NCBI RefSeq assembly: GCF_010500815.1
Contig: NZ_JAAAMG010000005.1
Location: 1-64,000 of the forward strand
DNA: 64,000 nucleotides
Source: Jiella pacifica
GTDB taxonomy: Bacteria > Pseudomonadota > Alphaproteobacteria > Rhizobiales > Rhizobiaceae
Reading direction: 5' to 3'
The notes beneath the pieces were generated by a model. It did no database searches. It was not told the origin of the DNA and saw only the letters and a program-made list of their open reading frames with translations. Shown piece by piece: positions 1,528 to 19,121 of the stretch. Within the stretch, counting starts at the first letter, position 1, and every line of letters begins with the position of its first letter. A program made the position numbers and the translations under genes.

Positions 1528-1549
1528 ATTATTTTACGTGTAAACTAAT
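1528..1549. promoter_or_regulatory. Inverted-repeat operator upstream of the transporter operon (site 1 of 3)
   Basis: ATTATTTTA, then CGTG, then TAAACTAAT: a near-perfect inverted repeat with a 4-base spacer, about 107 bases before the binding-protein start. Related sites lie at 8967-8988 and 19100-19121. TTGCGG (1519-1524) followed 16 bases later by TAAACT is a weak promoter candidate overlapping the site. The best candidate binder is the MarR-family regulator encoded at 9770-10318. The rest of the 370-base pyrC-importer gap (1286-1655) holds no gene I can support. Confidence 0.6.
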
Positions 1550-1655
1550 TTTCGACAGGGAGACGGGCGTCTCCGCGCGTCGAGACCGAGTAACGCCAGG
1601 CCGGGCTGGAGCAATGATTCCGTCCACCGAAGCACTTCGCATGGGAGATGCAGGA

Positions 1656-2837
1656 ATGACAACTATCCGCACCGTCGCCATCGGCCTTCTCGCCGCGACA
1701 GCCCTTGCCGGCTCGGCCTTCGCGCAGGAAAACTCCGGCGAAAAGCTCAAAGTCGGCCTGATGCTGACGCTGTCCGGCCCCGCGGCGGTGCTCGGCGAAC
1801 AGGCTCGCGACGGCTTCCTGCTGGCGGTCGAGGACATGGGCGGCAAGCTGGGCGGGCTCGACACCGAGGTAACGACGGTCGACGACGAGCTGAAGCCCGA
1901 CGTCGCCGCCAACAAGGCGCGCGAACTGGTCGAGCGGGACGATGCCGACTTCGTCGTCGGTCCGATCTTCTCCAACATCATGCAGGCGATCGCCAAGCCC
2001 GTCACCGACGGCGGCGCCTTCCTGATCTCCCCCAATGCCGGCACCTCGAACTTCGCCGGCGCCGAGTGCAACGAGAACCTCTTCGTCTCCTCCTACCAGA
2101 ACGACCAGGTGCACGAGGTTCTCGGCAAATATGCTCAGGACGAGGGGTATGGCCGGGTCTTCCTGATGGCGCCGAACTATCAGGCCGGCAAGGACGCGCT
2201 CGCCGGCTTCAAGCACTCCTACAAGGGCGAGGTCGTCGGCGAGCTCTACACCCCGCTCGGCCAGCTCGACTTTTCCGGCGAACTCGCCCAGATCGCCGCG
2301 ATGCAGCCGGACGCGGTCTACACCTTCATGCCGGGCGGCATGGGCGTGAACCTCGTCAAGCAGTATCGCCAGGCCGGTCTCGAGACGATCCCGTTCCTCT
2401 CCGCCTTCACCGTCGACGAGACGACGCTGCCGGCCCAAAAGGACGCGGCCGTCGGCTTCTTCGGCGGGGCCAACTGGGCGCCGGACATGGACAACGAGAA
2501 GTCCAAGGCCTTCGTCGCCGCCTATGAGAAGAAATACGGCAGCGTTCCGGGCACCTACGCCATGCAGGCCTATGACGCGGCCCAGATGATCGACGCGGCG
2601 ATCAAGGCCGCCGGCGGCGATCTTTCCGCCAAGGACGCGTTGCGTGACGGCCTTCAGGCCGCCGAGTTCACCTCGCTGCGCGGCGACTTCAAGATCGGCC
2701 CGAACCACTATCCGATCCAGGACTTCTACCTCGTCAAGGTCGCCAAGCGCGACGACGGGAAGTATCAGACTGAGATCGAGAAGAAGATCTTCGACGATTA
2801 TGCGGACAATTATGCCAAGGACTGCAAGATGAACTGA
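1656..2837 (+). CDS. ABC transporter periplasmic binding protein, LivK/aromatic-acid type
   Basis: A 393-residue Peripla_BP_6 (type I fold) protein with an N-terminal Sec signal peptide (about residues 1-23, cleavage after SAFA-Q) and a mature region starting KLKVGLMLTLSGPAAVLGEQARDG. It should capture a small ligand in the periplasm and deliver it to the permeases encoded next. ATG at 1656 is chosen because GGAG lies 8 bases upstream and the signal peptide begins there; the open frame extends further up without signal-like sequence. Classical ligands of this family are branched-chain amino acids, but in catabolic clusters they are often aromatic acids. The neighbouring anthranilate-type genes and shared operator make an aromatic ligand the best inference. 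Confidence 0.85.
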   Translation: MTTIRTVAIGLLAATALAGSAFAQENSGEKLKVGLMLTLSGPAAVLGEQARDGFLLAVEDMGGKLGGLDTEVTTVDDELKPDVAANKARELVERDDADFVVGPIFSNIMQAIAKPVTDGGAFLISPNAGTSNFAGAECNENLFVSSYQNDQVHEVLGKYAQDEGYGRVFLMAPNYQAGKDALAGFKHSYKGEVVGELYTPLGQLDFSGELAQIAAMQPDAVYTFMPGGMGVNLVKQYRQAGLETIPFLSAFTVDETTLPAQKDAAVGFFGGANWAPDMDNEKSKAFVAAYEKKYGSVPGTYAMQAYDAAQMIDAAIKAAGGDLSAKDALRDGLQAAEFTSLRGDFKIGPNHYPIQDFYLVKVAKRDDGKYQTEIEKKIFDDYADNYAKDCKMN

Positions 2838-2893
2838 GGGGTCGGGGCTTGAAGGGCGACGCCGACAAGCGAGACAACGCGCTGCATCAGTAG

Positions 2894-3060
2894 CCCCTCA
2901 TCCTGAGGTGCGACCTGAGCGCAGCGATGGGAGCCTCGAAGGGCGAGGGGCGCTCGGCTCGGCCTCGCTCCGTTCCGGTCTTGAACGGGAATCGCCTCAA
3001 ACGGCAGCGCCCGCCCCTCGCCCTTCGAGGCTCGCTTTGCTCGCACCTCAGGATGAGGGG
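2894..3060. repeat. Long inverted repeat inside the transporter operon
   Basis: The left arm (2894-2912 and 2931-2952) is mirrored by the right arm (3012-3033 and 3042-3060). Matching blocks are CCCCTCATCCTGAGGTGCG with CGCACCTCAGGATGAGGGG, and GAGCCTCGAAGGGCGAGG with its complement. The transcript could fold into a long hairpin with a roughly 60-base loop. Sequences beginning CCCCTCATCCTGAGG are a known dispersed repeat of rhizobial genomes. The element fills most of the 325-base gap between the binding-protein and permease genes, and I see no gene in it. Confidence 0.85.
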
Positions 3061-3162
3061 CGTCTGGCGTTTCGAGCGCGCTCTCGTCTGTCACGCCCAC
3101 CGCAGTTTGACGGTTGCTCGGGACACTCTGACGATCCAGAGCATGAGAACGACACAGGATCC

Positions 3163-4089
3163 ATGTTCAACCTCTTCCTCCTCCAGGCGCTGAATGGCGT
3201 CCAGTTCGGGATCCTCTTGTTCCTCGTCGCGGCGGGGCTGACGCTGATCTTCGGCATCATGGACATGATCAACCTTGCCCACGGCGTCCTCTACATGGTG
3301 GGAGCCTATTTCGCCGCGACCTTCACGGCGCTCACCGGCGATTTCCTTCTCGGCCTCGCCATCGCGTTGCCGGCCGCCCTCCTCTTCGGCCTGTTCCTGG
3401 AAGTGCTGATATTCCGGCATCTCTACGAGCGCGATCACCTCGACCAGGTGCTGGCGACCTTCGGCCTGATCCTGATCCTCAACGAGGGCGTCAAGATCGT
3501 CTGGGGCGCCGCGCCGATGAGCGTGCCGATCCCGGAAATCCTGTCCGGCGCCATCCCGCTGATCGGGCCGCTGCAATATCCGTTCTACCGCGTCGTCATC
3601 ATCGCCGCCGGGCTTCTCACCGCCGTCGGCCTGTGGCTCCTCGTCAACCACACGCGGATCGGCATGCTGCTCAGAGCCGGGGCGGTCAACGCGCCGATGG
3701 TCTCGGCGCTCGGCGTCGACATCCGCCGGCTGTTCATGCTGGTCTTCGGCTTCGGCGCGATGCTCGCCGGCTTTGCCGGGGCGATGGTCGCGCCGATCCT
3801 GTCGGTCGAGCCGGGGATGGGCGACGGCGTCCTCATCCTCACCTTCGTCGTCATCGTCATCGGCGGCGTCGGCTCGGTGCGCGGCGCTTTCGTCGCGGCG
3901 ATCCTGGTCGGCCTCGTCGACACGCTGGGCCGCACCTTCGGCCCGATCGTGCTGAGGGCCGTCATGGACCCGTCGGCCGCCTCGCAGACCGGCCGGACGC
4001 TGGCGCCGATGCTGATCTACATTCTGATGGCGGCCGTCCTGTTCTTCCGCCCGTCGGGACTTTTCCCGGCGAAGGGCTCGGCGGCATGA
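3163..4089 (+). CDS. ABC transporter inner-membrane permease, LivH type
   Basis: A 308-residue polytopic membrane protein of the BPD_transp_2 family, with about eight hydrophobic segments. It starts MFNLFLLQALNGVQFG, and GLTLIFGIMDMINLAHG is the family's conserved first-helix motif. The cytoplasmic loop ALGVDIRRLF probably corresponds to the ATPase-contact region. It pairs with the LivM-type permease to form the channel of the importer. The ATG at 3163 opens directly into the first hydrophobic segment; longer in-frame starts would add repeat-derived sequence. Its stop overlaps the next start (ATGA at 4086-4089). Confidence 0.9.
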   Translation: MFNLFLLQALNGVQFGILLFLVAAGLTLIFGIMDMINLAHGVLYMVGAYFAATFTALTGDFLLGLAIALPAALLFGLFLEVLIFRHLYERDHLDQVLATFGLILILNEGVKIVWGAAPMSVPIPEILSGAIPLIGPLQYPFYRVVIIAAGLLTAVGLWLLVNHTRIGMLLRAGAVNAPMVSALGVDIRRLFMLVFGFGAMLAGFAGAMVAPILSVEPGMGDGVLILTFVVIVIGGVGSVRGAFVAAILVGLVDTLGRTFGPIVLRAVMDPSAASQTGRTLAPMLIYILMAAVLFFRPSGLFPAKGSAA

Positions 4090-5108
4090 GCGCGGGAACC
4101 TCCAACGTCGCGGTTCCCGGCGCGGTGCCGGACGTCGCGCCGCGGCGGGGCGGCATGCTGGCCGGACGCGGATCGGCGCTGGCCGCGGCGCTGATCTTCG
4201 CCGCCCTCGCCGTGCTGCCACCGATCGCCCTTGCCATCGGCGATCCGTTCCTCGTCGTCACGGCGACGCGCATCCTCGTCTTCGCCATCGCCGCCTTGTC
4301 CCTCGACCTCGTCCTCGGCTACGGCGCCATGGTCTCCTTCGGCCATGCCGCCTTCGTCGGCCTCGGCGCCTATGCGGTGGCGATCCTGGCGTCCCACGGC
4401 ATCGACGACATCCTCGTCCAGGCCCTGGCGGCGATCGGCGTCTCCGCGCTCTTTGCCCTCGTCACCGGGGCGATCTCGCTCCGAACCAAGGGCGTCTACT
4501 TCATCATGATCACGCTCGCCTTCGGCCAGATGGCCTATTTCTTCATGGTCTCGCTGTCCGCCTATGGCGGCGACGACGGCCTGACGCTGTCTGCTCGCTC
4601 GACGCTGTTCGGCCTGCCGGTGCTCTCCAGCGACGTCTCGCTGTTCTATGTGAGCCTCGCCGTCCTCGCGAGCGCCTTCCTCGGCCTGCGCGCCCTCACT
4701 CTGTCGCGCTTCGGCCGCGTCCTGCGGGGCACCCGGGAAAACCCGATCCGCATGCAGGCGATCGGCTTCCAGCCATTCGCCTTCCAGCTGACCGCCTACG
4801 TCATCGCCGGCGCCCTCGCCGGCCTCGCCGGCGTCCTTCTCGCCAACCAGGCCGAGTTCGTCTCGCCGGCCTATATGAGCTGGCAGCGCTCGGGCGAGCT
4901 CATCGTCATGGTCGTCCTCGGCGGCATGGGCACCCTTGTCGGGCCGATCGGCGGCGCCATCGCCTTCCTCCTTTTGGAGGACTGGCTGGCGCATTTCTCC
5001 GAACACTGGAAGCTCGGCCTCGGCGTCCTTCTCGTCCTCCTCGTCCTGTTCACCCGCGGCGGCATCGCCGGCGGCGTCGAGCGGCTGTTCGGGAGGGCCC
5101 GGCCGTGA
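4086..5108 (+). CDS. ABC transporter inner-membrane permease, LivM type
   Basis: A 340-residue permease and second channel subunit. A roughly 30-residue cytoplasmic, Ala/Gly/Arg-rich N-terminus is followed by a first membrane segment (AALIFAALAVLPPIAL) and the family motif LDLVLGYGAMVSFGHAAFVG. The loop RENPIRMQAIGFQ probably contacts the ATPases, and FVSPAYMSWQRSGELIVMV is typical of LivM. The ATG at 4086 overlaps the livH-type stop, and its own stop overlaps the GTG of the next gene, so the four proteins are translationally coupled. Confidence 0.9.
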   Translation: MSAGTSNVAVPGAVPDVAPRRGGMLAGRGSALAAALIFAALAVLPPIALAIGDPFLVVTATRILVFAIAALSLDLVLGYGAMVSFGHAAFVGLGAYAVAILASHGIDDILVQALAAIGVSALFALVTGAISLRTKGVYFIMITLAFGQMAYFFMVSLSAYGGDDGLTLSARSTLFGLPVLSSDVSLFYVSLAVLASAFLGLRALTLSRFGRVLRGTRENPIRMQAIGFQPFAFQLTAYVIAGALAGLAGVLLANQAEFVSPAYMSWQRSGELIVMVVLGGMGTLVGPIGGAIAFLLLEDWLAHFSEHWKLGLGVLLVLLVLFTRGGIAGGVERLFGRARP

Positions 5109-5860
5109 GCGAACCGCTGCTTGCCGTCACCGACCTGCGCAAATCCTTCGGCGCCCTCGCCGTCACCGACGGGGTCAGCTTCGACGTTCACGGCAACGAG
5201 CTCCACGCCATCATCGGGCCCAACGGCGCCGGCAAGACGACGCTGATCCACCAGCTCTCCGGCAATCTCGCCAGCGATTCCGGCACCGTTCGCTTCGCCG
5301 GCGAGGACATCACCAAGCATTCGATGGTCGACCGCGTGCGGCGCGGCCTCGCCCGCTCCTTCCAGATCACCTCGATCCTCGACGGCTTCACCGTCCTTGA
5401 GAACGCGGCGATGGCAGTGCAGGCTCGATCCGGCTCGAGCTTCCGCTTCCTGCGGCCCGCCTCGAAGGAGAGCCCTCTCAACGACGAGGCGAGGGCTGCA
5501 CTGGCGCGGGTCAAGCTCGACGACCGGGCGCACCGCCGTGCCGGCAGCCTCTCCCACGGCGAAAAGCGCCAGCTGGAGATCGCCATCGCGCTGGCGACGG
5601 GGGCCAAGCTCCTCCTCCTCGACGAACCGCTAGCCGGCACCGGCCACGAGGAATCCGCCGTCCTGGTCGCGCTGATGCAGGAACTGAAGCTGACCCACAC
5701 CATCGTTCTCATCGAGCACGACATGGACGCCGTCTTCGCGCTGGCCGATAGGGTCAGCGTCCTCGTCTACGGCCGGCTGATCGCCACCGGCACGCCCGAG
5801 GAGGTTCGCGCCCATCCGGAAGTGCGCGCCGCCTATCTCGGCGAAGAGGAGGCCGCCTGA
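5105..5860 (+). CDS. ABC transporter ATP-binding protein, LivG type
   Basis: A 251-residue cytosolic ATPase of the importer. It has Walker A GPNGAGKTT (residues 38-46), a signature LSHGE (149-153) and Walker B LLLLDEP (169-175). The signature has His where most ABC proteins have Gly, a common LivG variant. The GTG start at 5105 overlaps the preceding stop by four bases (GTGA). It should form a heterodimer with the LivF-type ATPase and drive import through the two permeases. Confidence 0.92.
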   Translation: MSEPLLAVTDLRKSFGALAVTDGVSFDVHGNELHAIIGPNGAGKTTLIHQLSGNLASDSGTVRFAGEDITKHSMVDRVRRGLARSFQITSILDGFTVLENAAMAVQARSGSSFRFLRPASKESPLNDEARAALARVKLDDRAHRRAGSLSHGEKRQLEIAIALATGAKLLLLDEPLAGTGHEESAVLVALMQELKLTHTIVLIEHDMDAVFALADRVSVLVYGRLIATGTPEEVRAHPEVRAAYLGEEEAA

Positions 5861-5876
5861 TGCAGGAAGTCGCCTC

Positions 5877-6590
5877 ATGCTGAAAGTCGAGGGCCTCGAA
5901 AGCGCCTATGGCGACAGCCGCATCCTCTTCGGCATCGACCTCTTCGTCGGCGCCGGCGAGGTCGTCACCCTGCTCGGCCGCAACGGCATGGGCAAGACGA
6001 CGACGGTGAAATCGATCTTCGGCCTGCTCAAGCCTCGCGGCGGGCGCGTGTCGATCGACGGCGAGGACGTCACCGGCAAGCCGCCCCACGTCGTCGCCAA
6101 GCGCGGGCTCGGGCTGGTGCCGGAAGGACGGCAGATCTTTCCGACCCTGTCGGTGGAGGAGAACCTCGTCGCCACCCACCGCAGCAGCCGGGGCAGCGAC
6201 CGAACGAGCGCCCCGAAATGGACCCTCGAAAGCGTCTACGCCCTGTTTCCCCGGCTGAAGGAGCGCCGCCGCAACATGGGCAACCAGCTGTCGGGCGGCG
6301 AACAGCAGATGCTCGCCATCGGCCGGGCGCTGATGACCAATCCGCGCCTCGTCGTCCTCGACGAAGCGACGGAAGGCCTCGCCCCGCTGATCCGCGAGGA
6401 GATCTGGGCCTGCCTCACCGAGATCCGCAACGCCGGCGAGGCGATCCTCGTCATCGACAAGAACGTCGACGCGCTGGCCCGCTTCGCCGACCGCCACGTG
6501 GTGATCGAAAAGGGCCGCGTCGCCTGGTCAGGCACGACGGCGGAGCTGCGGGCGACCCCGGCGGTGAAGGAGCGGTTTCTGCATGTGTGA
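5877..6590 (+). CDS. ABC transporter ATP-binding protein, LivF type
   Basis: A 237-residue second ATPase of the importer: Walker A GRNGMGKTT (34-42), signature LSGGE (138-142), Walker B VVLDEA (159-164), and the LivF-typical sequence DEATEGLAPLIREEI. The usual switch His after Walker B is Asn/Lys-like here (VIDKN), as in many LivF proteins. It is the last gene of the five-gene transporter operon; 556 bases without a gene follow, holding the paired repeat at 6760-6888. Confidence 0.92.
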   Translation: MLKVEGLESAYGDSRILFGIDLFVGAGEVVTLLGRNGMGKTTTVKSIFGLLKPRGGRVSIDGEDVTGKPPHVVAKRGLGLVPEGRQIFPTLSVEENLVATHRSSRGSDRTSAPKWTLESVYALFPRLKERRRNMGNQLSGGEQQMLAIGRALMTNPRLVVLDEATEGLAPLIREEIWACLTEIRNAGEAILVIDKNVDALARFADRHVVIEKGRVAWSGTTAELRATPAVKERFLHV

Positions 6591-7146: not shown

Positions 7147-7605
7147 ATGCCAGTCATGACCATCGGCGTATCCAAGGCCAACGAGGGGATGGACGGCATC
7201 AGCTGGAACATCCTCGGCCAGACCTACGTGCCGAAGCAGCATTCGGAGGCGTCGTTCTCCTGGCATGCGACGTTCCATGTCGGCACCTTCGTGCCGCCGC
7301 ACATCCATCCGACCCAGGACGAGTTCGTCTACATTCTGGAGGGCCGGCTCGACGTCCTGCTCGACGGAAAGGAAGGCTTTGCCGAGCCGGGCGATCTCGT
7401 GCGCCTGCCGAAGGGCATTCCCCATGGTCTCTTCAACAAGACGGACGCGAACGTGAAGTGCCTGTTCTGGGTCTCGCCGGCCCAGCGGCTCTACGATCTC
7501 TTCTGGGCCCTGCACAATCTCGGCCCGAAGGCCGATCCGGCCGACATTGTCGCTGTCTCCGCCCGCCACGAGGTGGACTTCCTGCCTCCGCCCGACGCGG
7601 CTTGA
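7147..7605 (+). CDS. Single-domain cupin protein
   Basis: A 152-residue protein with one small beta-barrel cupin domain. Both consensus motifs are intact: motif 1 has His52, His54 and Glu59 (PHIHPTQDEF...LEG), and motif 2 has PKGIPHGLFN with His93. These four side chains normally bind one metal ion. The start at 7147 has AAGGAG upstream. The substrate cannot be read from sequence. It lies 55 bases before a PhzS-like flavin monooxygenase and probably shares its transcript, so a role as an oxygenase, isomerase or accessory protein acting on that enzyme's substrate is plausible but unproven. Confidence 0.8.
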   Translation: MPVMTIGVSKANEGMDGISWNILGQTYVPKQHSEASFSWHATFHVGTFVPPHIHPTQDEFVYILEGRLDVLLDGKEGFAEPGDLVRLPKGIPHGLFNKTDANVKCLFWVSPAQRLYDLFWALHNLGPKADPADIVAVSARHEVDFLPPPDAA

Positions 7606-7660: not shown

Positions 7661-8926
7661 ATGAAGGTCATCATCGTCGGCGCCGGGATCGGCGGGCTCA
7701 CCACGGCCCTGATGCTGCACAAGCGCGGCATCGAGGCAGAGGTCTACGAGCAGTCGGCCGCCGTGCGCGAGATCGGCGTCGGCATCAACACCTTGCCCCA
7801 CGCAATCCGCGAACTCGCCGAGATCGGCCTGCTGCCAGCGCTCGACGCGACCGGCATCCGCACCCGCGAGCTCTACTACTACAACCGCCAGGGCCAGGAG
7901 GTGTGGCGCGAGCTGCGCGGCATCGACGCCGGCCATCCGGTGCCGCAGTTCTCGATCCATCGCGGCCGGCTGCAGAAGCTGATCCACGATGCTGTCATCG
8001 ACCGTCTCGGCCCCCAGTCGGTGAAGACCGGCCTCGCCTTGGCCGGCTGCATCCAGGACGAGGGCGGGGTGACCGCCCATTTCACCGACGCCGTCAGGGG
8101 CGCTGCCGGCACAACGGTGCGCGGCGACGTTTTGATCTGCGCCGACGGCATCCATTCGGCGGCTCGGCGGCTGTTCTATCCCGACGAGGGCGCGCCCTCC
8201 TGGAACGGCGTCCTGATGTGGCGCGGCGCTACCGAGTGGACGCCGTGGCGGGACGGCCGGACCATGGCGATCGGCGGCGGCATGGGGGCGAAATTCGTGC
8301 TCTATCCCATCGCCGAGGCCGAGGGCGGCAAGCAGTTGATGAACTGGGTCGTCAACATCAAGATGGCCGACGCGGCGAAGTCGCCGCCGCCGAAGGAGAG
8401 CTGGTCGCGCCTCGCCCAGCGGTCATTGGTTCTGCCCTATGCGAAACGCTTCGCGATCCCGGACTTCGACGTCGAGGCCCTGGTGGAGGCGACCCCGCAG
8501 GTGTTCGAATATCCCATGTGCGACCGCGATCCCCTGCCCCGTTGGACCTTCGGCCGGGTGACGCTCCTCGGCGACGCGGCCCATCCGATGTATCCGGTCG
8601 GCTCCAATGGCGCTTCGCAGGCGATCCTCGATGCCCGCTGCCTCGCCGACAATCTGGCGCGGTCCGAACACCCCCGCCAGGCGCTCTTTGCTTATGAGCG
8701 CGAGCGTCTGCCGGTGACGGCCGAGGTCGTCCGGATGAACCGCAGGGGCGGCCCAGAAAGGGTCATCGACGAGGTCGAGAAGCGCGCGCCGGCCGGTTTC
8801 ACCCATGTCGAGGACGTCATCCCGCGCGCCGAGCTGAAGGCCATCGTCGGCGGCTATGCCGGCAAGGCCGGCTTTGCCACCGAGGCGGACCGGCAGGTGA
8901 CAGAGCGCCGGGCGGCAAACGGCTGA
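7661..8926 (+). CDS. FAD-dependent aromatic monooxygenase, PhzS-like
   Basis: A 421-residue group A flavoprotein hydroxylase. The N-terminal Rossmann motif is GAGIGG (residues 7-12), and the second FAD-binding block GDAAHPMYPVGSNGASQ lies near residue 304. Long stretches resemble Pseudomonas PhzS (5-methylphenazine-1-carboxylate monooxygenase), including GVGIN, FSIHRG.LQ, ADGIHS and the CDRDPLPRW region. PhzS uses NADH and O2 for oxidative decarboxylation/hydroxylation of an aromatic acid. No phenazine genes are here, and the setting is anthranilate-type CoA catabolism, so a hydroxylated (hetero)aromatic acid is a more likely substrate. It is probably in an operon with the cupin. Confidence 0.8.
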   Translation: MKVIIVGAGIGGLTTALMLHKRGIEAEVYEQSAAVREIGVGINTLPHAIRELAEIGLLPALDATGIRTRELYYYNRQGQEVWRELRGIDAGHPVPQFSIHRGRLQKLIHDAVIDRLGPQSVKTGLALAGCIQDEGGVTAHFTDAVRGAAGTTVRGDVLICADGIHSAARRLFYPDEGAPSWNGVLMWRGATEWTPWRDGRTMAIGGGMGAKFVLYPIAEAEGGKQLMNWVVNIKMADAAKSPPPKESWSRLAQRSLVLPYAKRFAIPDFDVEALVEATPQVFEYPMCDRDPLPRWTFGRVTLLGDAAHPMYPVGSNGASQAILDARCLADNLARSEHPRQALFAYERERLPVTAEVVRMNRRGGPERVIDEVEKRAPAGFTHVEDVIPRAELKAIVGGYAGKAGFATEADRQVTERRAANG

Positions 8927-8966: not shown

Positions 8967-8988
8967 ATTAGTTTAAGGTTAAAGGAAA
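8967..8988. promoter_or_regulatory. Inverted-repeat operator upstream of the SDR/MarR operon (site 2 of 3)
   Basis: A perfect left half ATTAGTTTA, spacer AGGT, and degenerate right half TAAAGGAAA; it ends 20 bases before the GTG of the SDR gene. TTGCCG at 8950-8955 is placed like a -35 element for a -10 within the site. Because the second gene of the operon is a MarR regulator, negative autoregulation is the simplest reading. Confidence 0.6.
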
Positions 8989-9008: not shown

Positions 9009-9773
9009 GTGGCCAAGACCGATCACCCCCGTCACGTCCTCGTCACCGGCTCCTCGCGGGGCATCGGCCGGGCGATCGCCGGCGCCTTCGTCGCGGCCGG
9101 CGACCGGGTGACGGCGCATGCCCGCACGGCGGGAAGCGCCGACGCGGCAATGGCCGAACTCGGCGCTCACGGCGCCATCGCCGCGGACGTCACCGATGCG
9201 CTGGCGCTGCAACGGGCGATCGCGGCGGCAGTGGAGGCCGGCGGCCCGATCGACGTCCTCGTCAACAATGCCGGCGGCGCCTCGACGGCCCCCTTGTCGC
9301 GCCTCGACGTCGATCAGCTTCGCCAGATGATGGCGCTCAACCTCGAGCCGGTTTTGACCGCCATCAAGGCCGTGGTCCCGGCGATGAAGGAGAGCGGCGG
9401 CGGGCGGATCGTTACCGTCGCCTCGACGGCAGGGCTCAAGGGCTACACCTATGTCGGCGCCTATTCCGCCGCCAAGCATGCGGTCGTCGGCCTCACGCGG
9501 GCCTTGGCGCAGGAACTCGCCGGCTCCGGCATCACCGTCAACGCCGTCTGCCCCGGCTATACCGACACGGCGCTGATCGGCGACAGCCTCGACAAGCTGG
9601 AAGCCAGGACCGGCCGGTCGCGCGAAGAGCTTCTGAAGAACTTCACCAAGGTCAATCCGCTGGGCCGGCTGATCGCGCCGGAAGAGGTCGCAGATTGCGT
9701 GCTGTGGCTCGCCGGACGGAATGCTGGCGCGGTAACGGGCCAGGCGATTGCGGTCGCGGGAGGCGAGATGTGA
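9009..9773 (+). CDS. Short-chain dehydrogenase, probable 3-hydroxyacyl-CoA dehydrogenase
   Basis: A 254-residue classical SDR. The cofactor motif TGSSRGIG is at 13-20, NNAG at 86-89, and the catalytic Tyr152-Lys156 lie in YSAAK. In this operon the likely reaction is NAD-dependent oxidation of the hydroxyacyl-CoA formed by the neighbouring enoyl-CoA hydratase, during ring-derived beta-oxidation; SDR sequence alone does not fix the substrate. The GTG at 9009 is the only start that keeps the nucleotide-binding strand. Its stop overlaps the MarR start. Confidence 0.8.
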   Translation: MAKTDHPRHVLVTGSSRGIGRAIAGAFVAAGDRVTAHARTAGSADAAMAELGAHGAIAADVTDALALQRAIAAAVEAGGPIDVLVNNAGGASTAPLSRLDVDQLRQMMALNLEPVLTAIKAVVPAMKESGGGRIVTVASTAGLKGYTYVGAYSAAKHAVVGLTRALAQELAGSGITVNAVCPGYTDTALIGDSLDKLEARTGRSREELLKNFTKVNPLGRLIAPEEVADCVLWLAGRNAGAVTGQAIAVAGGEM

Positions 9774-10318
9774 GCTCCACCCGCCTGCGCGAACATGTCG
9801 ACGCCGAATCCAAGCTCGACGAGGACACCGTGAATCACCGGGTTGAGCTGCGGCTGTGGCTGCGGCTTCTCACCTGCGCCAATCTCATCGAGGCCGAGAT
9901 CCGCAAGCGGCTGCGGGAGAATTTCGACACCACCCTGCCCCGCTTCGACCTGATGGCGCAGCTCGAACGCGCGCCGGACGGCATCCTCCTCGGCGAACTC
10001 TCCCGCCGCATGATGGTCTCGAACGGCAATGTCACCGGCCTCGTCGAGCGGCTGGTCCAGGAAGGGCTGATCGAGCGGCAGGTTTCCGAACGGGACCGCA
10101 GAGCCGCCCTCGTTCGCCTCACCGAGCGCGGCGCGGCCGTCTTCGCCAAGATGGCCAGAGCCCACAGCGACTGGGTGGCCGAGCTTCTCGCCGGCCTCTC
10201 CGCTCAAGACCAGAAGGCGCTGTGGTCGCGGCTCGGCGACCTCAAGCTCTCCGTGCGTGTCGCCACCGAGGGCGACGGCGACGCCATGGCACAGCCCGAT
10301 CCGGAGGAAGACCGATGA
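9770..10318 (+). CDS. MarR-family transcriptional regulator
   Basis: A 182-residue winged-helix regulator. Helices around residues 15-50 should form the dimer interface. The HTH is near 65-95 ([24 protein letters not shown]), and the wing carries the family's D-R-R motif ([12 protein letters not shown]). The GTG at 9770 overlaps the SDR stop (GTGA), and its own stop overlaps the next ATG, so the regulator is made together with the enzymes. MarR proteins of aromatic operons are usually repressors released by the CoA-thioester intermediate. The three ATTAGTTTA-type inverted repeats in this window are the likely binding sites. Confidence 0.88.
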
Positions 10319-11148
10319 GACGCCAGAACGCCATCGCCGCGCCGCTGACCGACTTTTCGCCGGAGCACTTCCAGCTGTCGATCGACGGCGGCATCGCCAC
10401 GGTCACGCTGAACCGGCCGGAGAGAAAAAACCCGCTCACCTTCGAGAGCTATGCCGAGCTGCGCGACACGTTCCACGCGCTGCGCTTCGACGATACGGTC
10501 AAGGCGGTCGTGATCACCGGCGCGGGCGGCAACTTCTCCTCCGGCGGCGACGTCTTCGATATCATCGAGCCGCTGACCAAGATGGAAGCCGCCGAGCTTC
10601 ACGCCTTCACGACGATGACCGGTGACCTCGTCAAGGAGATGCGCGCCTGCCCGCAGCCGATCGTCGCCGCGGTGGAAGGCGTCTGCGCCGGCGCCGGCGC
10701 GATCATGGCCATGGCCTCCGACATGCGGGTGGGCGCTACGGGAGCCAAGGTCGCGTTCCTGTTCAACCGCGTCGGCCTTGCCGGCTGCGACATGGGCGCC
10801 TGCGCCATCCTGCCCCGGCTGATCGGCCAGGGACGCGCCTCGGAGCTGCTCTACACCGGCCGCTTCATGAGCGCCGAGGAGGGCGAGCGCTGGGGCTTCT
10901 TCAACCGCCTGACGGAGAAGGACGGGGCGCTCGCCGGCGCGATGGAGATGGCGAAGGCACTGACCGAGGGGCCGACCTACGCCAATTCCGTCACCAAGAA
11001 GATGCTGCAGATGGAATGGGCGATGGGCGTCGAGGAGGCGATCGACGCCGAGGCGATTGCCCAGGCGCTGTGCATGAAGACTGGCGACTTTCGCCGGGCC
11101 TTCGAGGCTTTCGCGGCCAAGCAGAAGCCGGTCTTCGAGGGGAACTGA
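10315..11148 (+). CDS. Enoyl-CoA hydratase/isomerase family protein
   Basis: A 277-residue crotonase-fold enzyme with two oxyanion-hole segments, GNFSSGGDV (about residue 75) and [19 protein letters not shown] (about 122). The usual catalytic Glu after the second segment is not obvious: the equivalent region reads [12 protein letters not shown]. Ring-opening or hydrolase chemistry is therefore possible as well as simple hydration. It is coupled to the MarR gene by an ATGA overlap and precedes an acyl-CoA dehydrogenase gene, consistent with processing of a non-aromatic cyclic CoA ester. Confidence 0.8.
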
Positions 11149-11152
11149 GGCC

Positions 11153-12301
11153 GTGGCGGACAAGAGCTTCCTCGACTGGCCGTTCTTCGAAGAGCGTCAC
11201 CGCGCGCTGGCGGAAGAGGCCGACGGATGGGCTGCCGCCAACGTCCCCTCGCTGGTCGACCACCACGACGTCGATGGCAGCTGCCGGCGCCTCGTCGCCG
11301 CCATGGGCTCGGCGGGGTTCCTCGCCCACGCGGCGCCCGAGGACGGACGTTTCGATGTCCGCAGCCTCTGCATCCTGCGCGAGACCTTGGCCCGCCATGA
11401 CGGGCTCGCCGACTTCGCCTTCGCCATGCAGGGGCTCGGCACCGGCGCTTTGACGCTGTCGGGCAGCGAGGCGTTGAAAGAGCGGGTCATGCCCGGTGTT
11501 CGCTCGGGCAAGACCATCGCGGCCTTTGCCCTGACCGAGCCCGAGGCCGGCTCCGACGTCGCCGAGATCGCGCTCGCAGCCACCCCCGCCGGCAACGACA
11601 TGGTCCGGCTCGACGGGGAGAAGACCTGGATCTCCAATGGCGGCATCGCCGGCCACTACGTCGTCTTCGCCCGCACCGGCGAGGCGCCCGGCGCCCGCGG
11701 CCTTTCGGCCTTTTCGGTGCCGGCCGACACGTCCGGCCTCATCGTCGCCGAGCGGCTGGAGACGATCGCCCCGCATCCCCTCGCCCGGCTGACATTCGAG
11801 GACTGCCGCATTCCGGCTACGAACCGCATCGGCGAGGCCGGCGCCGGTTTCAAGATCGCCATGGCGACCCTCGACGTCTTCCGCTCGACGGTCGGCGCCG
11901 CGGCGCTCGGCTTTGCCCGCCGGGCGCTGGACGTCACATTGGAGCGCGCCCAAACGCGAAAACTCTTCGACGCGCCACTGGCCGACATGCAGCTGACCCA
12001 GACCGCGCTGGCCGAAATGGCGACGGCGATCGATACCTCCGCCCTCCTCGTCTATCGCGCCGCGTGGACCCGAGACGCCGGCGCGCCGCGCATCACCCGC
12101 GAGGCGGCGATGGCCAAGATGGTCGCCACCGAAAGCGCGCAAGAGGTCATCGACCGCGCCGTGCAGCTGCACGGCGGCGAAGGCGTGCGCTCCGGCTCGG
12201 TGCCGGAGACGCTCTACCGCGAGATCCGGGCGCTGCGGATCTACGAGGGTGCCACGGAAGTGCAGAAGCTGATCATCGCCCGCCAACTCCTGTCGTCCTG
12301 A
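11153..12301 (+). CDS. Acyl-CoA dehydrogenase
   Basis: A 382-residue flavoenzyme of the four-domain ACAD family. [13 protein letters not shown] is the flavin-contact strand, WISNGGIA the next block, and the C-terminal [16 protein letters not shown] carries the catalytic Glu region (about residue 364). It should introduce a 2,3-double bond into a CoA ester, passing electrons to ETF. GTG at 11153 follows the hydratase stop by four bases. In this operon it most likely acts on a ring-derived acyl-CoA. Confidence 0.85.
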
Positions 12302-12312: not shown

Positions 12313-13959
12313 ATGTCCGCTACATGCCATGTCGACCGCTTCGTCCTCGACAATCTGCCGCCGGCGGATCTGATGCCCGACTTCGTCAATCTCGACCGGC
12401 TCGGCTATCCGGAGATGCTGAACGCGACGGTCGAGCTGGTCGACCGGCATGTCAGCGAGGGCCGCGGCGACCGGCCTGCCCTGCTCGCGCCCGGCGGTGT
12501 ACGCTGGACCTATGGCGATCTCGCCCGGACGATCGACCGCATGGCGAATGTCCTGACGCAGAAGCTCGGCCTCGTGCCCGGCGCCCGCGTCCTTTTGCGC
12601 TCGGCGAACAACCCGACCAAGGTCGCGCTCTACATGGCGATCATCAAGGCCGGCGGGATCGTCGTCGCCACCATGCCGCTGCTGCGTTCCCGCGAACTCG
12701 TGCAGATCCTCGACAAGGCGAAGATCGGTCTCGTCCTGTCCGATGCGGCGCTCGGCGAGGAGATGGAGAAGGCCACGGATCTTGCCGCCGAGCGGCCGCG
12801 CGTCGTCACATGGTCGGGCACGGCGGGCGGCGAACTCGGCGCCCTCCTGGAGGGTGCCTCCGACCGGTTCGAAGCCGCACCGACGCGGGCCGACGATCCC
12901 TGCCTCCTCGGCTTCACCTCGGGCACCACCGGGCTTCCGAAGGCGACGATCCACTATCAACGCGACCTCCTCGTCATCTGCGACTGCTACGCCAAGGAGA
13001 TCCTCCAGGCGAACGAAGACGACGTCTTCATCGGCTCGCCGCCGCTCGCCTTCACCTTCGGGCTCGGCGGCCTCGTGCTCTTCCCGTTCCGGGTCGGCGC
13101 CTCGGCGGTGCTGCTCGAAAAGGCCGGGCCGGCGGATCTCGCCAAGGCGATCGGCGAATACAAGGCGACGATCTCCTTCACCGCGCCGACGGCCTATCGC
13201 GCCATCCTGTCGAAACTCGACGAATACGACCTCTCGTCCTTGCGCAAATGCGTCTCGGCCGGCGAGACCCTGCCGAAGCCGACCTTCGACGCCTGGCACG
13301 AGGCGACCGGCATCAAGCTGATGGACGGCATCGGCGCGACCGAGATGCTGCACATCTTCATCGCCGCGCGGGAGGACGAGATCCGCCCCGGCGCGACGGG
13401 AAAGCCGGTGCCGGGCTACGAGGCGAAGATCGTCGACTTCGAGGGCAACGAGATGCCGCGCGGCACGTCGGGGCGGCTCGCCGTGCGCGGCCCGATCGGC
13501 TGCCGCTATCTCGCCGACGAGCGCCAGCGGGTCTATGTCGAGAAGGGCTGGAACGTCACCGGCGACACCTATGTCGAGGACGAGGACGGCTATTTCTGGT
13601 TCCAGGCGCGCAACGACGACATGATCGTCTCGGCCGGCTACAACATCGCCGGACCGGAGGTCGAGGCGGCGCTGCTCTCCCATCCCGCCGTGATGGAGAC
13701 GGGAGTGGTGGGAGCGCCCGATCCCGAGCGCGGCCATGTCGTGCGCGCCTATGTGGTGCTGGCCGAAGGCTACGAGGACACGCCGGCCCTTGCCAAGGAC
13801 CTGCAGGACCATGTGAAGCGCGAGCTCGCGCCATACAAATATCCGCGCCAGATCGTCTTCGTCGACGGGCTGCCGAAGACCCAATCCGGCAAGATGCAGC
13901 GCTTCGCCCTGCGCCGTCAGGCGGAGGAAGAGGCGCAAAGACAGGGAGAAAACGCGTGA
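12313..13959 (+). CDS. 2-aminobenzoate-CoA ligase (benzoate-CoA ligase family)
   Basis: A 548-residue ANL-superfamily AMP-forming ligase. The P-loop FTSGTTGLPKA is near 200-211, the adenylate motif region DGIGATE near 338, and the C-terminal catalytic Lys in TQSGKMQR near 525. The N-terminus (HVDRFVLDNLPP, YPEMLNATVELVD) and segments such as LRSANNPTK and AGGIVVATMPLLR resemble my recollection of the Azoarcus evansii anthranilate-CoA ligase. It should activate 2-aminobenzoate with ATP and CoA in the cytosol. AGGAG precedes the ATG by seven bases. A salicylate- or benzoate-CoA ligase is the main alternative. Confidence 0.82.
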   Translation: MSATCHVDRFVLDNLPPADLMPDFVNLDRLGYPEMLNATVELVDRHVSEGRGDRPALLAPGGVRWTYGDLARTIDRMANVLTQKLGLVPGARVLLRSANNPTKVALYMAIIKAGGIVVATMPLLRSRELVQILDKAKIGLVLSDAALGEEMEKATDLAAERPRVVTWSGTAGGELGALLEGASDRFEAAPTRADDPCLLGFTSGTTGLPKATIHYQRDLLVICDCYAKEILQANEDDVFIGSPPLAFTFGLGGLVLFPFRVGASAVLLEKAGPADLAKAIGEYKATISFTAPTAYRAILSKLDEYDLSSLRKCVSAGETLPKPTFDAWHEATGIKLMDGIGATEMLHIFIAAREDEIRPGATGKPVPGYEAKIVDFEGNEMPRGTSGRLAVRGPIGCRYLADERQRVYVEKGWNVTGDTYVEDEDGYFWFQARNDDMIVSAGYNIAGPEVEAALLSHPAVMETGVVGAPDPERGHVVRAYVVLAEGYEDTPALAKDLQDHVKRELAPYKYPRQIVFVDGLPKTQSGKMQRFALRRQAEEEAQRQGENA

Positions 13960-14411
13960 ATCTCACCCGGCCGGTCGCCGGCGAGACGGAGACGTCCGCC
14001 GCAGGGATGGACGACGAGGGGCTGACGGTGCTGCAGCCGGAAGGCTGGAAGAAGCCGAAGGGCTATGCCAACGGCATGATGGGCCGCGGCCGTCTGGTGC
14101 TCACCGGCGGGCTGATCGGCTGGGACGACAACGAGGTGTTCGCCGACGGTTTCATTCCGCAGGTCGAGCAGACGCTGAAGAACGTCGTCGCCGTCGTCGC
14201 CGCGGCTGGCGGCCGGCCGGAGCACATCGCCCGCCTCACCTGGTACGTGAAGAGCATTGCGACCTATCGGGCCTCCCTCGCCGAACTCGGGCCGGTCTAT
14301 CGCCGGGTGCTCGGCCGGCACTATCCGGCAATGGCGCTGGTCGAGGTTTCCGATCTCGTCGAAGAACAGGCTCTCGTCGAGATCGAGGCGACGGCGATCC
14401 TGCCGGATTGA
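13956..14411 (+). CDS. RidA/YjgF-family enamine/imine deaminase
   Basis: A 151-residue protein with the RidA fold: LQPEGWKKPKGYANG, LVLTGGLIGWD, the RLTWYVKS strand and the C-terminal VEIEATAIL strand. RidA proteins hydrolyse reactive enamines/imines to ketones plus ammonia. The GTG at 13956 overlaps the ligase stop, with GGGAG upstream. The monooxygenase/reductase at 16678-19074 is expected to yield a 2-amino-oxo-cyclohexenecarboxyl-CoA, itself an enamine, so a pathway-specific deaminase role is attractive. That role is inferred from position and chemistry. Confidence 0.85.
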   Translation: MNLTRPVAGETETSAAGMDDEGLTVLQPEGWKKPKGYANGMMGRGRLVLTGGLIGWDDNEVFADGFIPQVEQTLKNVVAVVAAAGGRPEHIARLTWYVKSIATYRASLAELGPVYRRVLGRHYPAMALVEVSDLVEEQALVEIEATAILPD

Positions 14412-14516: not shown

Positions 14517-15371
14517 ATGGCCTATGACGCAATCTGGACGGGCGGCGAACCGATCGCCGACTACGACGCCGCCTATGACAATGGCGGCTCAATCACCGAC
14601 GCCGCGAGCTACCTGCCGCGCTGGCAGGCGAAGGCTCAAGCGTTTCGCGAGGCTTTGACGGCGGCGGGCCGCGCCGAACTCGGCGTCTCCTATGGCGACA
14701 AGCCGCGTCAGCATTACGACCTCTTCCGGCCGGAAGCCGAGCCGAAGGGCTTGGTCGTCTTCGTCCATGGCGGCTACTGGAAGGCCCGCGACATCGCCGA
14801 CTGGTCCCATCTCGCCGGCGGCGCCCTGGCGACAGGCTTTGCCGTCGCCATGCCGGAATATACGCTCTGCCCCGAAGCGACGATCCCCGAGATCACCCGC
14901 GAGATCGGCCACTTCCTCGATCAGGTGGCAGTGAGGATCCCCGGCCCGATCCGGCTCTCCGGCCATTCCGCCGGCGGCCATCTCGTTACCCGCATGCTCT
15001 GCCAGGGTGCACCGATCGCGGCCGAGACCGCCGCGCGGATCGACCGCACGGCCTCGATCAGCGGCTGCCACGATCTGCGCCCGATCATGCTGACCGGCAT
15101 GAACGCCGTCCTCGGTCTCGACGCGCGGACGGCGCGGGCGGAGAGCCCGGCGCTTCTGGAGCCGAGGGCGGGCGTCGACCTTCTCTGCCTCGCCGGCGGG
15201 GCGGAACTGCCGGAATTCCGCCGCCAGAACGCCCTCCTTGCAAACGCCTGGCACGGCTTCGGCGGCAGGACCCGTGCCGTCGAGCGGCCGGGCCGGCATC
15301 ACTTCGACATCGTCGACGACCTGATCGACCCAGCGAGCGAGCTCGTCGCATATCTCGCTGGCACAGCCTGA
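14517..15371 (+). CDS. Alpha/beta hydrolase, kynurenine formamidase-like
   Basis: A 284-residue alpha/beta-hydrolase. It has the oxyanion HGGYW motif (about 84-88), nucleophile elbow GHSAGG (Ser near 150) and a C-terminal His in RPGRHHFDIVDDL. This combination is characteristic of the AFMID-type arylformamidases that convert N-formylkynurenine to kynurenine, and not of the metal-dependent bacterial KynB. Anthranilate is made from kynurenine, which would tie this last operon gene to the pathway; hydrolysis of a CoA ester or ring-opened product is the alternative. AAGGAAG lies upstream of the ATG. Confidence 0.75.
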   Translation: MAYDAIWTGGEPIADYDAAYDNGGSITDAASYLPRWQAKAQAFREALTAAGRAELGVSYGDKPRQHYDLFRPEAEPKGLVVFVHGGYWKARDIADWSHLAGGALATGFAVAMPEYTLCPEATIPEITREIGHFLDQVAVRIPGPIRLSGHSAGGHLVTRMLCQGAPIAAETAARIDRTASISGCHDLRPIMLTGMNAVLGLDARTARAESPALLEPRAGVDLLCLAGGAELPEFRRQNALLANAWHGFGGRTRAVERPGRHHFDIVDDLIDPASELVAYLAGTA

Positions 15372-15562
15372 CTTCGGGAAAAGCCCCACGCGCAGGCAGA
15401 CCCCGGAAATGCCCGGAGCCTTTGCGCATCGGCCATCCTTTTCAAGGCGTTCTCCGCCACGGCCCTACGTCGCGGACCCAAGGGCCGCGAGCCACATTGC
15501 GGCGTGACTCGCTTGACCGGCTGCATCACGCGGCATGCCGCGCCACCTGTGTCACGCGGCGA

Positions 15563-16471: not shown

Positions 16472-16677
16472 CGTCACAGCTCCGCTTGCAACGACGTTAC
16501 TTTACGATAGGCTGCAAGCACATATCAGTTCATCAAGTAAAATTGATCCATGACGGCCAATCTCATTTTTCGAACGGATGTCAACACAATGCAGCCAGTA
16601 AAAATTCGTGGCTTCTTGTCGTTCATTCTCGATCGTCGCTCGGTCAGGCATCGATGGCGCATCGGCTTTCTGGCGGA

Positions 16678-19074
16678 CTACGGCCGCGGCCTCGACGGGC
16701 CGACGGCCAAACCCCGCTCCGTCTCAATTTCCGCCAAGGCATGCGGCCGCGGCCGCGCCTTGCGCCGCGTCTCGATTTCCTGCTCGCGCTTTTTCGACAG
16801 CTCGCGGTGCGCCTGGTCCCGGCCGGCGAGATACTGTTTCGGCCAATGCTGGTTGCGCGTGTCGTACCAGGCGGCGGCCTCCTTGGTGAAGTAAGGATTC
16901 CACATGTGCGGGCGGCCGAGGGCCACCAAGTCGGCCCGGCGGGTGTGGAGGATGGTGTTGACCTGAGCCGCCTCGGTGATCGCGCCGACAGCCATGACCG
17001 CCATCTTCGGGACGTTGCGGATCGCCTCGGCGAACTTCACCTGGAACATCCGGCCGTAGAGGGGCTTCTGCTCGGCAACCGTCTGGCCGGCCGAGACGTC
17101 GATCAGGTCGCAGCCCGCCTCGGCGAAAGCCTGCGAAATCGCGAAGGTGTCCTCCTCGTCGATGCCGCCCTCGGCCCAGTCGCTCGCCGAAATGCGCACC
17201 GACATGGGCTTGTGAGCCGGCCAGGCCTCGCGCGTCGCCGAAAAGACTTCGAGCGGATAGCGCAGCCGGTTTTCGATGGAGCCGCCATACTCGTCCTCGC
17301 GCCGATTGGTCAGCGGCGACAGGAACGAGGCGAGGAGGTAGCCATGGGCGCAGTGGAGTTCGACCATGTCGAAACCGGCGCGCTCCGCCCGCTCCGTCGC
17401 CTGGACGAAGTCGGTCTTGATCCGGTCCATGTCGGACCGGTCCATCGCCTTCGGGGCGGCGCTGACGCCATCCATGTATGGGAGGGCCGAGGCCGAAAAG
17501 AGCGGCCAGTTCTTCGCCTTGTCCTCAAGCGGCATGTCCATCTTCTGCCAGCCGAGCTGGGTCGAGCCCTTGCGGCCGGCATGGCCGAGCTGCATCACCA
17601 TCTTCGTCTTCGAATGGGCGTGGACGAAGTCGTTGATGCGCTTGAACTGCGCCTCCTGCGCGTCGGTCCACAGGCCCGGACAGCCCGGCGTGATGCGCGC
17701 ATCGGCCGACGGGCAAGTCATCTCGACGAACACCATGCCGGCGCCGCCGAGGGCATGCGAGGTGTAATGGACGAAGTGCCAGTCGGTGAGGTTGCCGTCC
17801 TCGTCGGCGGAATATTGCGCCATCGGGGACATGACGACGCGGTTCTCGACGACCATGTCGCGCAGCTTGAACTTCGTGAACATCGGCGTCGGCCGGCTTT
17901 TGCGGTAGTCCTCGCCAGTCTGCCGATAGAGCTGCTCGTAGAAGGCGGTGTCGACCTTTTCGACGAAGCCCGGATCGCGGACGACCAGATTGTCGTAGGT
18001 GATCGATTTCGCCCGGCACATCACCACCATGGCGAACTGCTCCGCGCTCATGTCCCAGGATCGGTTCATGTGCTCGAACCAGGCAAGCGAGACGTCGGCA
18101 TTGTGCTGGATGATCTGGCAGGGCGTGCGGCGCTCGGCCTCATAGGCCTCAAAAGCTTTGAGGGTGCTGGTTTCGGCATGCTCGACTACCGCGTCGGACA
18201 GCGAGATGGCGCATTCCATGGCAAGCTTGGTGCCCGAGCCGATGGAGTAATGGGCCGAGGCCTTGGCGTCGCCGAGGAGGACGATGTTCTCGTGCCACCA
18301 CCTGTCGCAGAAGATCCGCGGAAACTGCCGCCAGTTCGACCGGTTGAGAAGCAGCGGATGGCCCTGCAGCTCTTCGGCATAGAGGCTTTCGAGCACCGCC
18401 TTCGAGCCTTCCTCGTCCATCTGGTCGAAGCCGTGGCCGCGCCAGCAGGCGTCGTCCATCTCGAAGATCCAGGTCGAGCGGCCCTTCTCGTACTGATAGG
18501 TGTGGGCGCAGATGATGCCGTGCCGGGTCTCGCGGAAGAAGTAGTTGAACTCGTCCATCGGCCGGGTCGAGCCCATCCAGCAGAAGCGGTTCGACTGGAC
18601 CGCCACCTCCGGCATGAAACTCTCGCGAAAATGCTCGCGGATGCGCGAATTCACCCCGTCCGCCGCGACCACGACGTCGGAATCGGCAAAGCGGGTGGCG
18701 ATCTCCTCCGGCGGGATCGAGACGCCGAAATGCATCTCGACGCCCTCCTCCCGGCAGCGCCCCTGCAGGATGGCGAGGAGCTTCATGCGCGAGATGCCGG
18801 CAAAGCCGTTGCCGGCGCAGCGTATCTCGGCTCCGTGCTTGTGGACCGCGACATCGTCCCAATAAGCGAAGTCGTCGCGGATGCGGTCGAAGGACTTCGG
18901 ATCGCGCGACAGGAACTCGTGCAGCGTCTCGTCGGAGAAGACGACGCCAAAGCCGAAGGTATCGTCCGCGCGGTTCTGCTCGTAGACGGAAACGTCCCAC
19001 TCTGGCCGACGCTTTTTGGTCAGGAGCGCGAAATAGAGCCCGCCGGGGCCGCCGCCGATCACCGTGATGCGCAT
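16678..19074 (-). CDS. Bifunctional 2-aminobenzoyl-CoA (or salicylyl-CoA) monooxygenase/reductase
   Basis: A 798-residue fusion. Residues 1 to about 385 form a flavin monooxygenase (GGGPGGLY at 7-14, GFGVVFSDET, LLGDAKASAHYSIGSG). Residues from about 392 onward form an old-yellow-enzyme-type FMN domain (PMAQYSADEDGN, QLGHAGRKGS near 493, HCAHGYLLASFLSPLTNRR). Proteins of this architecture hydroxylate and then reduce 2-aminobenzoyl-CoA, or hydroxylate salicylyl-CoA, with O2 and NAD(P)H. The adjacent anthranilate-type ligase favours the first. ATG at 19074 has AAGGAG six bases upstream. It is transcribed away from the ligase operon but carries the same operator 26 bases upstream. Confidence 0.88.
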   Translation of the reverse strand: MRITVIGGGPGGLYFALLTKKRRPEWDVSVYEQNRADDTFGFGVVFSDETLHEFLSRDPKSFDRIRDDFAYWDDVAVHKHGAEIRCAGNGFAGISRMKLLAILQGRCREEGVEMHFGVSIPPEEIATRFADSDVVVAADGVNSRIREHFRESFMPEVAVQSNRFCWMGSTRPMDEFNYFFRETRHGIICAHTYQYEKGRSTWIFEMDDACWRGHGFDQMDEEGSKAVLESLYAEELQGHPLLLNRSNWRQFPRIFCDRWWHENIVLLGDAKASAHYSIGSGTKLAMECAISLSDAVVEHAETSTLKAFEAYEAERRTPCQIIQHNADVSLAWFEHMNRSWDMSAEQFAMVVMCRAKSITYDNLVVRDPGFVEKVDTAFYEQLYRQTGEDYRKSRPTPMFTKFKLRDMVVENRVVMSPMAQYSADEDGNLTDWHFVHYTSHALGGAGMVFVEMTCPSADARITPGCPGLWTDAQEAQFKRINDFVHAHSKTKMVMQLGHAGRKGSTQLGWQKMDMPLEDKAKNWPLFSASALPYMDGVSAAPKAMDRSDMDRIKTDFVQATERAERAGFDMVELHCAHGYLLASFLSPLTNRREDEYGGSIENRLRYPLEVFSATREAWPAHKPMSVRISASDWAEGGIDEEDTFAISQAFAEAGCDLIDVSAGQTVAEQKPLYGRMFQVKFAEAIRNVPKMAVMAVGAITEAAQVNTILHTRRADLVALGRPHMWNPYFTKEAAAWYDTRNQHWPKQYLAGRDQAHRELSKKREQEIETRRKARPRPHALAEIETERGLAVGPSRPRP

Positions 19075-19099
19075 CGCCTGCTCCTTTCGACCCATCAGG

Positions 19100-19121
19100 A
19101 TTAGTTTAGGCTTAAAGCATA
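19100..19121. promoter_or_regulatory. Inverted-repeat operator upstream of the monooxygenase/reductase (site 3 of 3)
   Basis: A perfect half ATTAGTTTA, spacer GGCT, and degenerate half TAAAGCATA, 26 bases upstream of the minus-strand start at 19074. The first 18 bases match site 2 except at two or three positions. The position suits repression by promoter occlusion and links this unlinked transcription unit to the MarR operon. Confidence 0.6.

Follow-up and report, generated by a model that had tools for sequence, protein, structure and literature searches.

Three palindromic sites as probable operators of a MarR-controlled anthranilate regulon in Jiella pacifica

In a 64,000-nucleotide stretch of Jiella pacifica DNA (contig NZ_JAAAMG010000005.1, positions 1 to 64,000; hereinafter the window), three short sites precede an importer operon, a CoA-ligase operon that encodes a MarR-family regulator, and the gene for a two-domain monooxygenase/reductase (ABM). 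Are these sites the operators of one regulon, and which protein binds them? An earlier note on this DNA had read each as a half-site with an inner partner and paired them with the MarR protein. The three sites (O1–O3) lie where that note placed them. They are very probably the operators of one local anthranilate regulon, which the MarR protein encoded at 9770–10318 would repress until a metabolite releases it. An operator is present at the regulator's own transcription unit (O2, before the short-chain dehydrogenase (SDR) and marR genes) and at the other pathway units (O1 and O3).

The half-site description needs correction in that O1 is an almost perfect palindrome; in O2 and O3, one arm is good and the outer part of the other is degenerate (2 and 3 mismatches, respectively). 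Within the window, the half-site ATTAGTTTA has four matches at no more than one mismatch, each inside O1–O3, compared with an average of 0.30 in shuffled sequence; TTTA-N4-TAAA has three matches, compared with 0.01. The genome searched comprises 5,774,732 bases in 74 contigs and is 97% complete. In it, ATTAGTTTA-N4-TAAA occurs exactly three times, at O1–O3, and the claim that the sites are found nowhere else therefore extends from the window to the genome. With up to two mismatches there are six matches, namely the three exact ones, a single one-mismatch match, which is the other arm of O1, and two two-mismatch matches outside the window; a control pattern gives three matches per strand. The palindrome ATTANTTTAN4TAAANTAAT, allowing three mismatches, matches the genome only at O1–O3, and its control nowhere. 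No unrelated match of comparable strength was found in the genome-wide search.

A 22-bp matrix was derived from 74 sites upstream of ABM genes whose products are at most 60% identical to that of the window (consensus ATTATTTTAAGCTTAAAATAAT). Besides O1–O3 (scores in Table 1), the best non-overlapping position in the window scores 4.0 bits, and the reversed matrix reaches at most 4.9 bits. The best score in 6 Mb of simulated sequence is 22.4 bits, below all three sites. The conserved sites show two-fold symmetry with a conserved GC centre.

The sites overlap likely −10 regions, and many loose matches occur in AT-rich genomes, as would be expected if they were ordinary AT-rich promoter elements or chance matches. 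Indeed, the count of the palindrome across 297 genomes of the order says little by itself, since chance matches arise in AT-rich genomes (133 of the 297 genomes have a match). When set against a reversed control at no more than two mismatches, however, the palindrome is in excess in the 99 genomes that encode an ABM (132 versus 37) and shows no excess in the 198 that do not (381 versus 451). Because of the shuffles, the reversed patterns, the simulated genome and the genes inside operons (below), chance or AT-rich noise was ruled out as an explanation; considering also the symmetry, the GC centre and the uniqueness in the genome, we regard it as extremely improbable, in agreement with the earlier note.

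The site is conserved upstream of related ABM genes. The comparison comprised 161 distinct upstream regions, after exclusion of regions that duplicate another over the last 60 bases, of hits that begin beyond residue 3 and of stretches shorter than 100 bases. The palindrome is present at no more than four mismatches in 118 of the 161 regions, and the reversed pattern in 4; most relatives with the genes have therefore retained the site. With the absence of comparable unrelated matches in the genome, both computational checks suggested in the earlier note thus favour its reading. By identity band, the counts are 16/16 above 80%, 18/30 at 70–80%, 7/16 at 60–70%, 38/48 at 53–60% and 39/51 below. 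A matrix scan for sites of at least 14 bits in 200 related loci, which total 3.47 Mb and include some genomes more than once, gave 387 sites, 329 of them upstream of a pathway gene at a distance of no more than 330 nt; the reversed matrix gave 25 positions.

Because these loci were picked around ABM or MarR, the telling figure is which genes carry a site. We counted sites of at least 18 bits within 330 nt upstream, excluding instances below 40% identity or less than 340 bases from a locus end. ABM carries a site in 148 of 170 instances, and in 130 of the 151 that lead a transcription unit. Leaders and followers differ for SDR (50/55 versus 28/73), the importer's substrate-binding protein (SBP; 38/45 versus 5/16), MarR (22/35 versus 1/104), ligase (10/15 versus 7/77), hydrolase (6/6 versus 0/7) and cupin (3/11 versus 0/36). 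Genes that lie inside operons have none: acyl-CoA dehydrogenase (ACDH) 0/108, enoyl-CoA hydratase-like (ECH) 0/121, FAD-dependent monooxygenase (FMO) 0/38, RidA 0/106, and LivF, LivG, LivH and LivM 0/236 together. The leader-versus-internal pattern is kept in 126 loci outside the training set (SBP leaders 26/31, SDR leaders 18/21, ACDH 0/50), and also when identical sequences are removed.

Which protein binds the sites? Among the 297 genomes, ABM (E ≤1e-100) and MarR (E ≤1e-15) are each found in 99; 96 genomes have both, 3 have ABM only, 3 have MarR only and 195 have neither. A relative of MarR thus accompanies ABM in 96 of 99 genomes and occurs in 3 of the 198 others, a contrast whose Fisher value ignores relatedness. 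In the three ABM genomes without MarR, the ABM gene is at a contig end (G069, G176) or on a 5.6-kb contig (G246). The window's protein is a MarR regulator, as the earlier note had read it, with PF12802 at 47.7 bits (cut-off 27) and PF01047 at 45.3 bits (cut-off 24.6). Its predicted structure (pLDDT, predicted local distance difference test, 86.9) retrieves MarR proteins in a fold search; the model supports the MarR fold and is uninformative on the ligand. PADLOC gives weak CARF/HTH matches to it. We aligned every third of 118 MarR matches (40), minus three with an internal stop, together with the window's protein (alignment A2, 37 plus one). Residues G75, N76 and T78 are invariant or nearly so and fall in the predicted recognition helix.

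The sites could also be operators of this regulon that are bound by a regulator encoded elsewhere, with the local MarR in another role. Binding by MarR is our reading of its co-occurrence with the palindrome, and some ABM loci, such as L162 and L163 of Roseibium, have a good site beside a distant MarR (29–34% identical). Against a foreign regulator stand the presence of MarR in nearly all ABM genomes and its rarity elsewhere, the changing position of its gene (SDR-MarR-ECH, LivG-MarR-LivF, or alone) within the cluster, and the site at 22 of 35 unit-leading marR genes. A stretch was inspected in two of the three genomes with MarR and without ABM; in one, marR and SBP are preceded by sites, and in the other there are none. 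We therefore consider a foreign regulator improbable, and the pairing of these sites with the local MarR, proposed in the earlier note, gains support.

We infer that a MarR dimer binds the 22-bp palindrome. On the −10 and spacer region, it would repress three units: the importer operon, the operon that contains its own gene (SDR-MarR-ECH-ACDH-ligase) and ABM. A pathway metabolite, most likely the 2-aminobenzoyl-CoA made by the regulon's own ligase, would release it.

The direction of regulation is suggested by the placement of the sites. In a set of 127 non-redundant ABM sites, T is more frequent than any other base at 10 and 9 nt ahead of the palindrome (52% and 62%), and in 30 SBP sites a TTG is found 9–7 nt ahead of it (73, 73 and 63%). 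If the TAAA(A/C)T of the right half-site is read as the −10 box, the −35/−10 spacing becomes 16–17 in ABM and SBP promoters, including the two putative promoters of the window (Table 1). Any protein bound to the palindrome would occlude the −10 box together with most of the spacer, which suggests repression at the importer and ABM promoters. Separately, a promoter-like consensus match lies on the minus strand over O1 (1528–1555), toward a divergent dihydroorotase-like open reading frame.

Several observations weigh against a MarR regulon of this form. Forty-three of the 161 ABM promoters have no match at up to four mismatches; they include most Methylobacterium, which have a degenerate version (5–6 mismatches), and gammaproteobacteria, which have a different palindrome. 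In eight genomes of the same family as the window with a more distant ABM (46–48%), the best match differs from the palindrome at 2 to 6 positions. Outside the training set, 17 of 85 leading ABM genes lack an 18-bit site. Of the 387 scanned sites, 58 lie farther than 330 nt from any pathway gene, and the internal marR, ligase and SDR genes counted above carry some sites, the SDR cases including the FMO–SDR gap as in the window. The loose palindrome (three mismatches) in 10 named relatives gives 38 matches in total versus 18 for the control. The matrix was trained on ABM sites, the loci were centred on ABM, the relatives are not independent and some genomes are repeated. No TTG box is conserved before 33 SDR sites. 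Finally, no sense-strand promoter emerged at O1, O2 or O3 from a scan with the sigma-70 consensus, so the promoter boxes are a reading of the sequence and of related promoters.

The genes of the proposed regulon are listed in Table 1. After O1 come SBP, the Liv-type subunits, the cupin gene and FMO, and the order after O2 is SDR-MarR-ECH-ACDH-ligase-RidA-hydrolase. The names LivH, LivM, LivG and LivF were given by resemblance. The marR start is a GTG that overlaps the SDR stop; the ECH start codon was read from the sequence.

Table 1 Features of the window. Scores of O1–O3 are from the matrix built on distant relatives
Feature	Positions	Strand	Sequence, support or remark
Operator O1	1528–1549		ATTATTTTACGTGTAAACTAAT; upstream of importer operon; 31.8 bits
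Operator O2	8967–8988		ATTAGTTTAAGGTTAAAGGAAA; in FMO–SDR gap; 28.2 bits
Operator O3	19100–19121		ATTAGTTTAGGCTTAAAGCATA; 26 nt before ABM start codon; 30.9 bits
Putative importer promoter	1519–1546	+	TTGCGG (1519–1524), 16-nt spacer, TAAACT (1541–1546) in O1 right half-site; weak match
Putative ABM promoter	19103–19131	-	TTGATC (19131–19126), 17-nt spacer, TAAACT (19108–19103) inside O3; below scan threshold
SBP, substrate-binding protein of branched-chain-amino-acid-type ABC importer	1656–2837	+	PF13458
Importer permeases/ATPases	3163–6590	+	LivH-like 3163–4089, LivM-like 4086–5108, LivG-like 5105–5860, LivF-like 5877–6590
Cupin protein	7147–7605	+	PF07883
FMO, FAD-dependent monooxygenase	7661–8926	+	NF005720 578 bits (cut-off 400)
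SDR, short-chain dehydrogenase	9009–9773	+	PF00106; leads middle operon
MarR-family regulator	9770–10318	+	PF12802, PF01047 above gathering
ECH, enoyl-CoA hydratase-like	10315–11148	+	NF006107 464.6 bits (cut-off 330)
ACDH, acyl-CoA dehydrogenase	11153–12301	+	PF00441
Benzoate/2-aminobenzoate-CoA ligase-like	12313–13959	+	TIGR02262 366.7 bits (below cut-off 375.25)
RidA-like enamine/imine hydrolase	13968–14411	+	PF01042; start uncertain
Alpha/beta hydrolase	14517–15371	+	NF058665 338.3 bits (cut-off 320; model label hormone-sensitive lipase)
ABM, two-domain monooxygenase/reductase	16678–19074	-	PF00724 + PF01494; 798 residues

What is the substrate of the pathway? ABM, whose closest named relatives are from Jiella (93%), joins a FAD monooxygenase domain (PF01494) to an old-yellow-enzyme-type domain (PF00724), a make-up that we take to be that of 2-aminobenzoyl-CoA monooxygenase/reductase. 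ABM scores 1035.7 bits against NF006101, named salicylyl-CoA 5-hydroxylase/oxidoreductase, below the cut-off of 1078. Because ABM and the ligase each fall just under their NCBIfam cut-offs, anthranilate (2-aminobenzoate), taken up and broken down by a CoA-dependent aerobic route, is the probable substrate. The earlier note had placed the sites upstream of genes for one pathway; the positions stand, and the assignment to anthranilate, being based on homology, is probable. It is helped by a relative in which a site directly precedes a kynureninase-like gene (below). Elsewhere in the window, a long open reading frame (21829–24003) has G/Q/S-rich repeated segments between similar blocks.

For the MarR ligand, a CoA ester, 2-aminobenzoyl-CoA, is the likeliest candidate by analogy. 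CouR binds p-coumaroyl-CoA and not p-coumarate (PMC4737184), and a review sees in induction by CoA thioesters a trait that is emerging as common to the MarR proteins for lignin derivatives (PMC5487221); for the window's MarR, responsiveness of the CouR/FerC/BadR type is suggested by analogy only. Other candidates are free anthranilate, a different aryl-CoA (salicylyl-CoA, for instance) and an intermediate further along the pathway. The name of the NCBIfam model nearest to ABM points this way, as does IadR (MarR_73), which binds indole-3-acetate itself and not a CoA ester (PMC9613470). We take another ligand seriously, while rather doubting it.

Rearranged relatives show which genes the sites accompany. 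All three sites are kept in J. avicenniae, J. pelagia and Aureimonas glaciei; in A. coralicida and A. manganoxydans, sites stand ahead of SDR and between SBP and ABM. In J. sonneratiae, the ABM/MarR contig contains neither the importer nor the FMO/ligase genes; these lie on other contigs (the two may adjoin each other), and the separated importer and ligase each have their own site. A single MarR homologue was found in each of J. mangrovi, J. sonneratiae, Aurantimonas sp. 22II-16-19i and Pararhizobium mangrovi, and a strong site lies close to it, about 0.8 kb upstream of marR or in the mirror position, which is the place expected for SDR. In L284 and L196 (Jiella pelagia), SBP and marR each appear as two overlapping or adjacent matches, which may be frameshifts. 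In three Cellvibrionaceae-type gammaproteobacteria (L175, L176, L178), another palindrome, TATATATTACRTGTAATATATA, lies upstream of ABM with a MarR 39–40% identical alongside; regulator and operator may possibly have changed together there.

Additional genes also carry the site. At L296:3269–3290 (genome G247), a 31.5-bit site stops 6 nt short of the first ATG of a kynureninase-like gene (PF22580 above cut-off; TIGR01814 236.6, below 246.4), which is followed by a luciferase-type monooxygenase gene. This site is a possible link from tryptophan breakdown to the anthranilate regulon. In Chelatococcus asaccharovorans (L286:3839–3860), a site lies between an indolepyruvate-oxidoreductase-like gene (TIGR03336 269.4, below the cut-off of 650.9) and that of an ABC substrate-binding protein. 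In Jiella mangrovi, a Fulvimarina metagenome-assembled genome and an Aurantimonas sp. (L140, L142, L194), ABM belongs to another cluster, which has acyl-CoA ligases and further operator-like sites; in L140, the genes beside ABM are for ligase, thiolase-like, SDR, cyclase, thioesterase and FadB-like proteins. These genes fit routes that would feed anthranilate or its CoA ester, and auxin degradation is described as yielding anthranilate or 2-aminobenzoyl-CoA (PMC9613470). More broadly, a MarR regulator that has yet to be named, acting on the conserved 22-bp operator, may govern 2-aminobenzoyl-CoA metabolism across much of the Alphaproteobacteria. In some species the operator would have been recruited to feeder genes (kynureninase-like, indolepyruvate-oxidoreductase-like, and the ligase-thiolase-cyclase cluster), one sensor of a CoA intermediate thus gathering several tryptophan- or indole-derived routes. 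We regard this wider proposal as an even call.

A MarR protein acting on inverted repeats in aromatic catabolism is of a well-known kind; this regulator, its operator and its range are apparently undescribed. No regulator of this anthranilate route was found in an open-access full-text library, RegPrecise and subscription papers being outside the scope of the search, and the searched passages of MarR reviews make no mention of 'anthranil' or 'aminobenzo'. The present analysis supplies a candidate regulator, site and target set for a widespread anthranilate route. The conserved site could serve as a marker for genes of routes that lead from tryptophan, kynurenine or indole-3-acetate to 2-aminobenzoyl-CoA, and MarR is a candidate sensor part.

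The 2-aminobenzoyl-CoA pathway of Azoarcus/Aromatoleum evansii comprises a CoA ligase, a two-domain monooxygenase/reductase and beta-oxidation-type enzymes, a set that the Jiella genes resemble. The proposed regulation resembles that by CouR of Rhodococcus jostii and Rhodopseudomonas palustris, a MarR repressor for p-coumarate that is encoded with a CoA-ligase pathway and acts on inverted repeats at several promoters, its own included (PMC4737184, PMC10458429); in R. jostii its ligand is a CoA ester (PMC4737184). The operators differ, in that the CouR box of RHA1, cATTGA-N5-TCAATg, lies over the −35 box (PMC4737184), whereas the Jiella sites are TTTA-N4-TAAA with outer ATTA/TAAT, apparently lie over the −10 box and belong to another pathway. 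IadR (MarR_73), also of the MarR family, regulates auxin degradation in Variovorax, a pathway with anthranilate as its product, and Variovorax MarR structures are among the fold matches of the window's MarR. IadR, however, binds indole-3-acetate and controls its conversion to anthranilate (PMC9613470), whereas the genes described here are probably for the uptake and breakdown of anthranilate. The nearest solved sequence is PDB 3boq, a MarR protein of Silicibacter pomeroyi whose titles give no function (96.5 bits; 130.6 bits with the family profile); it is also the third-ranked fold match, at 34–35% identity. The regulon proposed here would offer a possible function for that structural family.

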